From Nonomuraea rhizosphaerae (GTDB lineage: Bacteria > Actinomycetota > Actinomycetes > Streptosporangiales > Streptosporangiaceae): a DNA stretch of 37,441 bases. Location of the stretch: contig NZ_JAHKRL010000285.1 in NCBI RefSeq assembly GCF_019396405.1, positions 1-37,441 on the forward strand, read 5' to 3'. The notes beneath the pieces are model-generated. The model worked only from the letters and a program-made list of their open reading frames with translations. It had not been told where the DNA came from and made no database searches. A program made the translations under genes and the position numbers. The number at the start of each line of letters is the position of its first letter. The first letter of the stretch is position 1. This document shows positions 4,056 through 10,420 of the stretch, one piece after another.

Positions 4056-5078
4056 TCAGGGCCAGGAACTGTCCTGGTCAGGGTCGCCGCCGTCCGACAG
4101 CAGCCGGATGTCGGACTCGACCATCATCGCCACCAGCTCGTCGAACGAGACCGTCGGCTCCCAGCCGAGCTGCACCCGGGCCTTCTTCGGGTCGGCGCAC
4201 AGCAGGTCGACCTCGGCGGGCCGGTGCAGGGCCTGGTCGGTGACGACGTACCGCTCCCAGTCGAGGGAGGCCGCCGCGAAGGCCGCCCGCACCAGCTCGC
4301 GCACCGACTTCATGCGGCCCGTGCCGATCACATAGTCCTCGGGCGTGCCCGCCTGGAGCATGAGGTGCATGGCGCGGACGTAGTCGCCGGCGAAGCCCCA
4401 GTCGCGCCGCGCCTCCAGGTTGCCGAGCCGCAGCTCGGTGGCCATGCCCAGCTTGATCCGGGCCACGCCGAGCGACACCTTGCGGGTGACGAACTCGGCG
4501 CCGCGCCGGGGCGACTCGTGGTTGAACAGGATTCCGGAGACGGCGTACATGCCGTACGACTCGCGGTAGTTCTGGGTGAGGAAGTGCCCGTACGCCTTGG
4601 CCACCCCGTACGGCGAGCGAGGGTGGAAGGCGGTGCTCTCGGTCTGCGGCGTCTCGCTGACCTGCCCGAACATTTCGGACGACGAAGCCTGATAAAAGCG
4701 GATCTGGCGGGAGGAGGGGCCGCCCCGCGACACGCCCGAGCACACCCGGATGGCCTCCAGCATGCGCAGCACGCCCATCCCGGTCACCTCGGCCGTCAGC
4801 TCGGCCTGCTCCCACGACATGGGCACGAACGAGATCGCCCCCAGGTTGTAGACCTCGTCGGGCTGCACCCGCTCCACCGCCGAGATCAGCGATCCCTGGT
4901 CCAGCAGGTCGCCGCGGACCACCTGGACGTCCGCGAGCAGCTTGCGCATCCGCGACACGCGCGGGTTCGCCTGACCGCGGGCCAGGCCCCAGACCTCATA
5001 ACCCTGGCCGAGCAGATACTCGGCCAGGTACGAACCGTCCTGGCCAGTGATACCGGTGATCAGAGCGCGCCTGGCCAA
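4056..5078 (-). CDS. gmd: GDP-mannose 4,6-dehydratase
   Basis: The 340-residue extended short-chain dehydrogenase converts GDP-D-mannose to GDP-4-keto-6-deoxy-D-mannose. Residues 9-15 give the NADP-binding GITGQDG motif. The catalytic set is visible as ASSSEMFG (131-138) and Y157-x3-K161 in SPYGVAKAYGH. Segments RRGAEFVTRKV and NLEARRDWGFAGDYV are typical of GMD. I chose a TTG start at 5078 because GGGAGGA sits four bases upstream and the Rossmann fold begins at once; a longer in-frame extension to 5282 adds no recognisable domain. It is divergent from the GT4 gene. No GDP-fucose synthase or rhamnose reductase is in the window, so the final sugar is unknown. Confidence 0.93.
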   Translation of the reverse strand: MARRALITGITGQDGSYLAEYLLGQGYEVWGLARGQANPRVSRMRKLLADVQVVRGDLLDQGSLISAVERVQPDEVYNLGAISFVPMSWEQAELTAEVTGMGVLRMLEAIRVCSGVSRGGPSSRQIRFYQASSSEMFGQVSETPQTESTAFHPRSPYGVAKAYGHFLTQNYRESYGMYAVSGILFNHESPRRGAEFVTRKVSLGVARIKLGMATELRLGNLEARRDWGFAGDYVRAMHLMLQAGTPEDYVIGTGRMKSVRELVRAAFAAASLDWERYVVTDQALHRPAEVDLLCADPKKARVQLGWEPTVSFDELVAMMVESDIRLLSDGGDPDQDSSWP

Positions 5079-5335
5079 GGAGTCCTCCCAGTAGTGCGAC
5101 CGCGTCCGTTGGGACGGGAATGTACAGCTAAGCGCCTCGATACAGCACCCCGAGCCACCTAGAACACGTTCCACCGAATCACGCTCGGTTAGCCCAATGC
5201 CGCAGTTCGTGCGGTGTTTGGCGGCATGTGGCAACAATTCCAGGTGACCTACCGAATGGTAGCCTTCTCGGACTAAGGTCATCTTTCACGGTACACGCCC
5301 GTCTCAGGGCCTACCGGGCGGAGAAAGGGGTGTCC
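5079..5335. other. Divergent intergenic region between gmd and the glycosyltransferase
   Basis: About 250 bases separate the two divergent genes and should hold both promoters. I see no convincing -35/-10 pair, hairpin or RNA gene here. Confidence 0.4.
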
Positions 5336-5377
5336 GTGCGGGAGCGAACCGGACGCAGTGAGCAGCGGACGCAGTGA
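5336..5377 (+). CDS. Possible 13-residue leader peptide before the GT4 gene
   Basis: A GTG at 5336 follows GGAGAAAGGGG with suitable spacing and opens a 13-codon frame (VRERTGRSEQRTQ). Its TGA overlaps the GTG at 5374 of the glycosyltransferase as GTGA. The main gene has no good ribosome-binding site of its own, so translation may be coupled through this short frame. The peptide has no recognisable function, and it may not be expressed. Confidence 0.35.
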   Translation: MRERTGRSEQRTQ

Positions 5378-5381
5378 GCAG
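5350..5381. repeat. Exact 16-base tandem duplication at the GT4 start
   Basis: The unit CGGACGCAGTGAGCAG occurs twice with no gap (5350-5365, 5366-5381). Each copy contains a GTG; only the second is in frame with the glycosyltransferase. The duplication also creates the stop codon of the 13-codon leader frame. Confidence 0.9.
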
Positions 5382-8436: not shown

Positions 8437-8754
8437 CTTTCTTTACGGCAGGCATGGGCCGGCCCCAGTCGCCGACCAGGGCCGGCGGCTGTCCAGGGGA
8501 ACGGTCCTCCGGTGATGCGAGGCTGGGCGCCGTTACGTGCGTCCGGTTGACCGGAGCGCGCTTTTCCCAGACCGGAGCGTGCTCTCCCCCGGGCCGGAGC
8601 GCGTTCTTCCAGGCCGGAGCGTGTTTTCGTTGAGAAGCCGTGACGCAAGGTGTTTTGCCGCATCTTTGCCGGGAAATGCGGAGCGGCATCGCTGAAGGCC
8701 CTATTGGGGTCACTAGCTTCGTGAGTGGCCGTACGAGGCGTCTTCGGGGGAAGC
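8437..8754. other. 318-base gap with degenerate repeats, no gene seen
   Basis: Between the toroid and DUF1702 genes there is no supported reading frame. The region holds a TCCGGT-TG-ACCGGA inverted repeat (8542-8555) and four degenerate CCGGAGCGyG repeats described separately. The DUF1702 promoter should be in the 3' half. Confidence 0.6.
8551..8633 (+). repeat. Four degenerate ~21-base direct repeats
   Basis: Copies begin at 8551, 8572, 8594 and 8614, each CCGGAGCGyG followed by a pyrimidine-rich stretch (for example CCGGAGCGCGCTTTTCCCAG). The 20-22 base spacing is close to two DNA turns, so the copies would face the same side of the helix. They lie upstream of the DUF1702 gene and could be a regulator's binding array; this is inference. 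Confidence 0.65.
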
Positions 8755-9753
8755 GTGGGCGACACGGGCACAACAACGTACTTGGAGCAGGACAGGACCG
8801 AGCCGACACTGTCGCCGGTCCGGGGTCTGCGGAAAATGCTGGCCAAGAAGCCGCTTGAGGCGGATCTGGCCCAGCGGAGGTTCCGGCTGCGGCAGGGACA
8901 TCCCCGCGAAACCATCGAAGGTGCTGAAAAATCGTACTTGTTCGGCTTCAACGCCGTCCTGTCGCGAGAGATCGGCAAGATCGAGGAAGTGTCCGTCGAG
9001 CAGCGGAGCTTCGCGTACGAGGGAGCCGGTGCCGCCTGCACCGTGCTCGACCTGCTCACCATGACTCGGGGCCGGCGCCTTCACGAGCTACTGGCCGGCC
9101 CCGCCCAGCATCACCGCCACGCCGCCCTCCTGGGCGCCGGTCGCGGCCACGCGCTGCTGCGGCTGCGGCCCGTACGGGGCGTGCGCGGGGCGCACCACCC
9201 GCTGCTGCGCTGGCTGGCCGTGGACGGCTTCGGCTTCCAGTGGAGCCTGCAGCGGGCCGATCGGATGGTCGGCGAGCGGATCATGCCCGACCTGCTCACC
9301 AGGGCCCACTGCGCGATCTTCGACCAGGGGCTGGGGCGGCTGCTGTGGATGCACGAGTGCGCCTCGCCCGACGACCTGGCGACCAGGATCGAGGCGTATC
9401 CGGCCCCGCGACGGGGTGATCTGTGGACCGGCGCCGGGTTCGCGGCCACGCACCTCGGCGGCGCGGACCTCGACGAGCTGTGGTGGCTGACCGACCACGC
9501 GGGGGCCGACGGGTTCCGGCCGCATCTGGCGCAGGGGTGCGCGTTCGCCGTGGCGGCCGGGCTCCAGGCGGGGCCGCTGCCGGACCACGTCGCGCAGGCC
9601 GCGCCGATCCTGGCGGGGGCCGAGCCGGACGAGGCCGCCCTGTGGACCGACGGCGCGCTCCTGGAGCTGGGCGACGACCCGCACACCCACGAGGACTTCC
9701 TGGCCTGGCAGTTCCACACCCGCCGCGCCTGGAACCGCCGCCACCGCTACTGA
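8755..9753 (+). CDS. DUF1702 family protein
   Basis: The 332-residue product matches DUF1702 throughout: RSFAYEGAGAACTVLDLL, LLAGPAQHHRHAALLGAGRG, HPLLRWLAVDGFGFQ, AIFDQGLGRLLWM, YPAPRRGDLWTGAGFAATHLGG and FRPHLAQGCAFAVA. DUF1702 proteins are best known from enediyne biosynthetic gene clusters and have no established activity. No polyketide synthase is in this window. The GTG at 8755 follows GGGGGAAG by one base; a GTG at 8725 is an alternative start with no ribosome-binding site. It converges on the second methyltransferase with a 31-base gap. Confidence 0.85.
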   Translation: MGDTGTTTYLEQDRTEPTLSPVRGLRKMLAKKPLEADLAQRRFRLRQGHPRETIEGAEKSYLFGFNAVLSREIGKIEEVSVEQRSFAYEGAGAACTVLDLLTMTRGRRLHELLAGPAQHHRHAALLGAGRGHALLRLRPVRGVRGAHHPLLRWLAVDGFGFQWSLQRADRMVGERIMPDLLTRAHCAIFDQGLGRLLWMHECASPDDLATRIEAYPAPRRGDLWTGAGFAATHLGGADLDELWWLTDHAGADGFRPHLAQGCAFAVAAGLQAGPLPDHVAQAAPILAGAEPDEAALWTDGALLELGDDPHTHEDFLAWQFHTRRAWNRRHRY

Positions 9754-9784
9754 CCCCGGGGCCGGACACTCGGCTCCACCAGGC

Positions 9785-10420
9785 TCAGATGCCCGGCCCC
9801 ACCCGCTCCAGGACCCGCAGCGAGCCCTGCGCCGACCTCTCGGTGAAGGCGCCCGACTCCAGCGCCCGCAGATAGACCCGGTACGGCGCCTGCCCGCCGT
9901 CGGCCGGGTCCGGGTAGATGTCGTGGAAGACCAGCGCGCCGCCCTCCATGACGTGCGGCGCCCAGCCCTCGTAGTCGCGCGTCACCGGCTCCTCGGAGTG
10001 CCCGCCGTCGATGAACAGCATGGCCAGCGGCGTGTTCCACAGCCCGGCCGCCTGCTCCGAGCGCCCCACGACGGCGATCACGTGGTCCTCCAGCCCGGCC
10101 GCCGCGATGGTCTGCCGGAACGTCGGCAGCGAGTCCATCTTGCCGAACCGCGGATCGACCAGCGTCGGATCGTGGTGCGCCCAGCCGGGCTGGATCTCCT
10201 CCGAGCCGCGGTGGTGGTCGACGGTGACGACCACGGACCCGGCCTGGCGGGCGGCGGCCCCGAGATAAACGGCGGACTTGCCGCAGTATGTGCCGATCTC
10301 GCAGATCGGGCCCAGGGAGCCGTACTGCAGGGCCGCCTCGAAAAGGGCCAGCCCTTCCGGCTCCGGCATGAACCCCTTGGCGTGCTTGGCCGCGTAACGC
10401 AGCTCCGGCGGCATCGTCAT
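9785..10420 (-). CDS. Class I SAM methyltransferase (Methyltransf_24 type)
   Basis: The 211-residue product has motif I as [17 protein letters not shown], the acidic second strand in [14 protein letters not shown], and [22 protein letters not shown] with the [12 protein letters not shown] segment. This layout matches Methyltransf_24 and cephalosporin-hydroxylase-like proteins, which often modify sugars or secondary metabolites. I chose the ATG at 10420; a GTG at 10432 adds four residues and neither has a Shine-Dalgarno. A TACTAG hexamer just upstream could be a -10. It faces the DUF1702 gene, and the glycan role is inferred from position only. Confidence 0.82.

Follow-up and report, generated by a model that had tools for sequence, protein, structure and literature searches.

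A predicted methylmannose polymer locus of Nonomuraea rhizosphaerae with a DUF1702 gene probably surviving from an enediyne-type cassette

Why does a gene of the DUF1702 family, which Pfam lists as being of unknown function, stand in the middle of a compact block of glycan genes in Nonomuraea rhizosphaerae? The block occupies positions 4056-10432 of the 37,441-nucleotide stretch analyzed here (contig NZ_JAHKRL010000285.1; hereafter the window), which belongs to a genome assembly that is 64% complete. A first-pass annotation had taken its six genes for one undescribed pathway making a methylated 6-deoxysugar glycan. We propose instead that the block is a locus for a methylmannose polymer (MMP) of the kind described in mycobacteria, and that its DUF1702 gene survives from an enediyne-type polyketide synthase (PKS) cassette that was once captured there. 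As an explanation of the whole locus, we give this reading a probability of roughly 85%. Numbers beginning with L and G denote our loci and genomes.

The six-gene block itself was confirmed, every open reading frame (ORF) being open and each having a family or homologue match. In a codon-bias scan, five of the six genes show in their own frame and the frame of mmpH is fused to a longer upstream ORF. ManT, pMeT3, MmpH and DUF1702 run in the same direction, with an overlap of 4 bases between pMeT3 and MmpH; since gmd and MeT1 lie on the minus strand, the block is not one operon. The features are as follows:

4056-5078, minus strand: gmd, GDP-mannose 4,6-dehydratase family, divergent from manT (Pfam GDP_Man_Dehyd 1.3e-121; PDB 1rpn 3e-107)
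5079-5373, no strand: gmd/manT divergent intergenic region, 295 bp (window aligned with 34 same-genus loci)
5374-6633, plus strand: manT, GT4 alpha-1,4-mannosyltransferase orthologue (PDB 7qsg; start GTG 5374 or ATG 5386)
6683-7399, plus strand: pmeT3, class I S-adenosylmethionine methyltransferase, putative MMP 3-O-methyltransferase (Pfam Methyltransf_11 4.4e-22)
7396-8436, plus strand: mmpH, (alpha/alpha)6 endomannosidase orthologue, the "toroid" of the first-pass annotation (PDB 7qsj)
8725-9753, plus strand: DUF1702 (PF08012), E3-type protein of the enediyne PKS cassette (Pfam 2.3e-60)
9785-10432, minus strand: meT1, MMP 1-O-methyltransferase orthologue (PDB 6g7d)
10465-10944, plus strand: PPOX-class (F420-type) oxidoreductase (Pfam PNPOx_N 5e-14; TIGR03618 2.7e-17, under its cut-off)
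11182-12267, plus strand: zinc alcohol dehydrogenase, ADH (Pfam ADH_zinc_N 1e-27)

In nontuberculous mycobacteria, a four-gene MMP cluster consists of MeT1, MmpH, pMeT3 and ManT (MHAS_04402-04405; PMC9883506). The window contains the same four genes, pMeT3 as a putative assignment, in the same order, all within 5374-10432. ManT matches PDB entry 7qsg (6.4e-141, 58.6% identity over 401 aligned residues) and MmpH matches 7qsj (1.1e-116, 53.9% over 304), which are the M. hassiacum ManT and MmpH, respectively (PMC9883506). Most of the catalytic residues checked are kept, including six of seven donor-site and catalytic residues of ManT (G15, H142, K240, D293, E313 and E321, with L291 replaced by I). 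MeT1 matches 6g7d (6e-76, 60.4% over 197 residues, 15-211), which we take to be M. hassiacum MeT1; identity to the three structure-solved proteins is 54-60%. pMeT3 has no close relative in PDB (best match 8.5e-15) and was assigned, as a candidate, by its methyltransferase family and the gene order manT-pmeT3-mmpH. The window departs from the mycobacterial cluster in that DUF1702 separates MmpH from MeT1, gmd lies upstream in divergent orientation, PPOX and ADH follow downstream, and MmpH carries D50N, F102H and W315Y.

Judged by homology, the core of the block thus belongs to a known type of MMP gene set. This removes the claim of an undescribed glycan pathway, as a cluster of this composition is already on record (PMC9883506). 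By analogy with the mycobacterial enzymes, MmpH would release short primers by cutting mature alpha-1,4-(3-O-methyl)mannan, ManT would add mannose from the donor GDP-mannose, pMeT3 would methylate O-3, and MeT1 would cap O-1 of the reducing end to give new chains. Homologues in Streptomyces have been mentioned (PMC9883506), and Streptomyces griseus makes an acetylated MMP (1977 paper, via PMC9883506 and PMC4555173). The latter offers an actinomycete outside the mycobacteria with an MMP, and the polymer of the window is predicted from genes alone.

MmpH was found in 42 of the 59 genomes of a first draw, including all 35 same-genus relatives; across the family, 248 of 250 genomes have it. A comparison of gene order around the toroid and DUF1702 homologues, as suggested with the first-pass annotation, yielded the identical eight-gene order gmd-ManT-MeT3-MmpH-DUF1702-MeT1-PPOX-ADH in 34 of the 35 same-genus loci, a conservation far beyond chance. 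The exception (L053, G030) has MmpH-DUF1702-MeT1-PPOX-ADH and no gmd, ManT or MeT3 in the ~5 kb upstream of MmpH, and may represent a rearrangement or an assembly fault. ManT-MeT3-MmpH is present in each of the 60 loci that represent 59 further genera of the family (with MeT1 within the fetched flank in 49) and in all six loci outside the family (MeT1 in four, gmd and DUF1702 in none). PPOX and ADH, each present in 35/35 same-genus loci, occur in 22 and 24 of the 60 other-genus loci, and DUF1702 stands directly after MmpH in three. Some loci are one contig fetched twice (e.g., L134/L153, L133/L095/L154, L077/L159, L140/L163 and L100/L165). A long minus-strand gene follows MmpH in many of L109-L126; that of L111 (+1.1 to +5.0 kb) resembles, by eye, a penicillin-binding transglycosylase.

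The DUF1702 gene has a different background. All enediynes are stated to share the PKS cassette E3/E4/E5/E/E10 (PMC5181780). A KR-DH pair following the ACP is reported to be a specific feature of their PKSs (PMC4599437), and one figure legend lists DUF1702 together with enediyne cassette genes (PMC7692728). The gene order that we observe is DUF1702/E3, FG-GAP UnbV-like/E4, UnbU-like/E5, PKS/E and thioesterase/E10, where the gene-by-gene assignment to E3-E10 is a putative one made by order.

Pieces of such a cassette were found in 10 of the 60 other-genus MMP loci, nine after MmpH and that of Rhizohabitans on the gmd side. In Sinosporangium album (L133/L154), MmpH is followed by DUF1702, FG-GAP/UnbV, an UnbU-like gene, a KS-AT-KR-DH PKS and a 4HBT thioesterase, and Rhizohabitans (L165) has the complete five genes, likewise in cassette order, beyond gmd. 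In both, the PKS order KS-AT-ACP-KR-DH was read from aligned motifs, ACP included, and the KS Cys and AT Ser are kept (L133, L165). S. siamense has the cassette minus the thioesterase, and Pfam gives KS, AT, KR and DH on its PKS. Overall, Pfam supports KS-AT, the thioesterase and FG-GAP/UnbV, and UnbU weakly (RnfD 0.00097, below cut-off). Compared with the enediyne cassette, these gene sets differ in location, standing inside or next to an MMP locus, and in completeness: in most genera that have one it is reduced to pieces, and the window has E3 only.

The reduction is graded. DUF1702-UnbV-UnbU occurs without a PKS in four Streptosporangium loci (L158, L160, L161 and L163) and with one in L157, L138 and L155 have DUF1702 and PKS only, and L073 has UnbU with at most a PKS remnant. 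Five genera (L074, L075, L094, L097 and L099) show a KS-AT piece only, and DUF1702 is alone of the cassette in Planobispora, Planomonospora and Nonomuraea. The frames of all the PKS and KS-AT genes whose active-site motifs were read are open. The Streptosporangium PKSs of L138, L155 and L157 are without AT and ACP, two of the three also without the KS Cys, and in the KS-AT-only genera ACP, KR and DH are gone in 5/5, with both KS Cys and AT Ser lost in L074, L075 and L094 and both kept in L097 and L099. Including L152, the KS Cys is missing in four and the AT Ser in three of six KS-AT proteins. Their ratio of nonsynonymous to synonymous substitution rates (dN/dS) is 0.33 in the single genus pair L099/L152, the same as that of MmpH. 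In Streptosporangium canum (L157, L234, L235; G240), ~19 kb separate MmpH from DUF1702-UnbV-UnbU-PKS, which is encoded on the MmpH strand; the interval has thus expanded there.

The DUF1702 gene of the window is 288 bases from MmpH and 31 from MeT1, and no E4, E5, PKS E or E10 lies beside it; the window is therefore not classed as an enediyne cluster. Neither a KS-AT match in the window nor an E5-like gene in its 64%-complete genome was found. In a DUF1702 tree of 54 rows (the window and 53 of 80 named loci, these being the best 80 of 265), all 24 MMP-linked rows form one clade (support 100/97.8), which lies within the single-DUF1702 cassettes of other actinomycetes such as Streptomyces, Amycolatopsis, Lentzea and Prauserella. 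Among the same best 80 of 265 loci, MmpH lies in the fetched stretch in 24 and ~19 kb away in L157, and neither MmpH nor ManT was seen in the remaining 55. In an MmpH tree of 73 rows, a quick tree with many weak forks, all 16 cassette-bearing rows fall into one 30-row clade, and no piece was found in its other 14 rows. Both results fit one entry and many losses. A single entry of the cassette into the MMP locus, in an ancestor within the family, followed by piecewise loss, is thus most likely, with the qualification that counts alone do not separate gain from loss.

Neighborhoods and tree together identify the DUF1702 gene, as far as sequence can tell, as a descendant of E3, the first gene of the enediyne PKS cassette. 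This is the new part of the finding, and it takes DUF1702 out of the role of glycan-pathway enzyme that had been ascribed to it. We found no published account of an enediyne-type cassette nested in an MMP locus and kept in pieces, nor a published link between enediynes and these polysaccharides, in a literature search that was thin on subscription journals. Nonomuraea endophytica has a lone DUF1702 (L191), 45% identical to the Sinosporangium copy; the stretch fetched around it showed neither MMP nor cassette genes.

How does gmd fit into such a locus? It bears on the pathway first proposed, in which gmd would give GDP-6-deoxyhexose, the GT4 enzyme and the methyltransferases would build a methylated 6-deoxysugar glycan, and DUF1702 would be a dedicated enzyme. 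gmd stands divergent beside manT in 34/35 same-genus and 29/60 other-genus loci (2 more cut), being commoner in the latter than DUF1702 directly after MmpH (29 vs. 3), and its median dN/dS is as low as that of ManT (0.11 each). Among the readable rows of the 66 loci outside the genus, it accompanies 28 of 35 MmpH proteins with N at position 50 and one of 29 with D. This association, however, rests on two to three events and is not significant, and the core set stands without adjacent gmd in 35/66 loci outside the genus (2 cut), comprising 6/6 outside the family and 29/60 of other genera. Moreover, the GT4 enzyme retains the donor-site residues of the GDP-mannose enzyme, no RmlD- or epimerase-type partner was found among the 29 other window proteins scanned (a part of all window ORFs), and DUF1702 occurs mainly with enediyne-type PKS genes. 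We consider this pathway very improbable. The methylated glycan stands by homology, and the 6-deoxysugar lacks support, since ManT is the orthologue of a GDP-mannose-dependent mannosyltransferase and gmd is often absent beside the core; nothing in the genes points to such a product. gmd is better described as a lineage neighbor sharing the GDP-mannose donor than as a demonstrated MMP step. It scores 399.7 bits against TIGR01472, under the cut-off of 415, and is the single strong match per genome in 6/6 same-genus genomes (none of the six above that cut-off, and the window's own genome incomplete as stated). Its start is most likely TTG 5078 and not 5282, because the first 68 codons of the ORF fall inside the conserved intergenic region. 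There, the palindrome-like blocks AGAACNCGTTCC and CTACCNAATGGTAG are conserved across the same-genus loci (window and 34 aligned), and a shared regulator may act at this divergent region.

Two further readings concern the present use of DUF1702. It adjoins MmpH in 42 of 43 Nonomuraea genomes checked (35 relatives, the window and six by coordinates). Median dN/dS values in the genus are 0.38 for DUF1702, 0.27 for MmpH, 0.21 for MeT1, 0.14 for MeT3 and 0.11 for ManT and gmd, based on those 852 of 861 pairs, from 42 of 45 sequences, that passed a filter on MmpH divergence; the pairs overlap, include duplicates and are not independent. Excluded were L045 and L051 (stop inside the aligned ManT stretch) and L053 (no ManT there), and MeT1 is represented by 811 pairs (L064 MeT1 dropped). 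DUF1702 shows 0.16-0.38 in the 40 closest pairs listed and, in five pairs of three other genera, 0.24-0.42 vs. 0.21-0.34 for MmpH; in Streptosporangium pairs, UnbU (0.60-0.61) and UnbV (0.39-0.43) are looser. A suspected frameshift was ruled out and the gene is intact. These ratios point to purifying selection on DUF1702 in Nonomuraea, where it is probably still in use. A neutral cassette relic that no longer has a function and is being lost would account for the graded loss across genera, for the one genus member without DUF1702 (G256, with MmpH and MeT1 intact), for a dN/dS above that of the neighbors and up to 0.81 in single pairs, and for the ease with which the MmpH-MeT1 interval takes insertions, but the near-complete retention and the ratios in close pairs make it unlikely. 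DUF1702 might also still serve an enediyne-type pathway by complementing PKS cassettes elsewhere in the genome, given that 10 of 26 genus members have an E5-like gene with additional DUF1702 copies away from the MMP locus. Those 10 genomes, however, own separate copies, and 15 of the 16 members without an E5-like gene have the MMP-linked DUF1702 and no second copy at E 0.001 (the PKS itself was not searched in G010 and G033). In these 15, which include the single-contig G010 and G033 and the 64%-complete genome of the window, DUF1702 is therefore outside any E5-bearing cassette, and complementation is the least probable of the explanations considered.

The toroid protein had been noted as lacking cyclase motifs. 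No cyclase-family match was indeed found, and the protein is now identified as an orthologue of the glycoside hydrolase MmpH: as a squalene-hopene or oxidosqualene cyclase it has no Pfam match, reaches only E 0.02 with PDB cyclases and 7e-4 with TIGR03463, far under its cut-off, vs. 1e-116 with MmpH. Compared with the M. hassiacum enzyme, D47, W49, N101, T163, M215, Y219, E262 and E265 are kept, and D50 is replaced by Asn, F102 by His and W315 by Tyr; the D50N and W315Y sites lie at 7498-7500 (residue 35) and 8296-8298 (residue 301). As the site has been termed highly conserved in other genera (PMC9883506), these three changes are a real difference. According to the published text, either D47 or D50 could be the catalytic acid, and one legend names D47 as putative (PMC9883506). 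Our survey of loci adds evolutionary evidence and favors D47, since D47 is invariant (as is the catalytic base E262) in 101/101 loci while D50 is Asn in 71/101 (35/35 same-genus, 36/60 other-genus and 0/6 outside the family).

Several observations weigh against an MMP locus with a surviving E3-type gene as the full answer. No cassette piece was found in 50 of the 60 other-genus loci, and a Streptosporangium-type locus (L135) has neither a cassette piece nor MeT1. To these add the genome G256 and the dN/dS of DUF1702, the highest of the six genes. The MmpH-MeT1 interval also holds other genes, as read by eye: a penicillin-binding-protein-like gene in another genus, and genes resembling those for a sigma factor, a transporter and a metallo-beta-lactamase/rhodanese protein, each in one or two loci of the Nonomuraea type, so that residence there need not imply joint function. 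Fold searches with DUF1702 against solved structures gave no clear match and indicated no function. On the side of the polymer, the role of pMeT3 is putative in mycobacteria too, and D50A drastically reduced the activity of M. hassiacum MmpH (PMC9883506); together with the changes at D50, F102 and W315, the specificity of the Nonomuraea MmpH may therefore differ.

Elsewhere in the window, a membrane acyltransferase gene (Acyl_transf_3) lies at 26587-27771, ~16 kb away from the MMP locus, and 28838-36593 holds likely sugar-catabolism genes (ThuA, xylose-isomerase-like TIM barrel, Gfo/Idh/MocA oxidoreductase and ROK regulator).

Under the reading that we prefer, the MMP locus would have acquired an enediyne-type cassette a single time, in an ancestral member of the family, and Nonomuraea would have kept E3 without the PKS when other pieces were lost. 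We know of no established role of E3 in enediyne clusters. The AlphaFold2 model of DUF1702 is all-helical (mean pLDDT 89.6), and we posit that the protein is most likely now an exapted, non-enzymatic helical scaffold or carrier tied to the polymer or its acyl-chain cargo. The MMP and enediyne-type pathways, for which we found no earlier link, may share a function. A more far-reaching version, which we hold to be rather doubtful, is that proteins of the enediyne cassette play a second role, either older or exapted, and handle acyl chains alongside a polymethylated polysaccharide. The MMP would then bind long acyl or polyene chains, with DUF1702/E3 as its protein partner, joined in other genera by the truncated KS-AT proteins.

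With our analysis, the MMP locus reaches almost every genome sampled from a large family outside the mycobacteria. The analysis further suggests that an antibiotic-type PKS cassette became nested at a locus for a lipid-binding polysaccharide and survives there in graded pieces. The orphan E3 of Nonomuraea, apparently kept by selection, allows E3 to be studied apart from the PKS, and if the proposed acyl-chain role is true, E3 would be a chain-binding scaffold that is open to such study.

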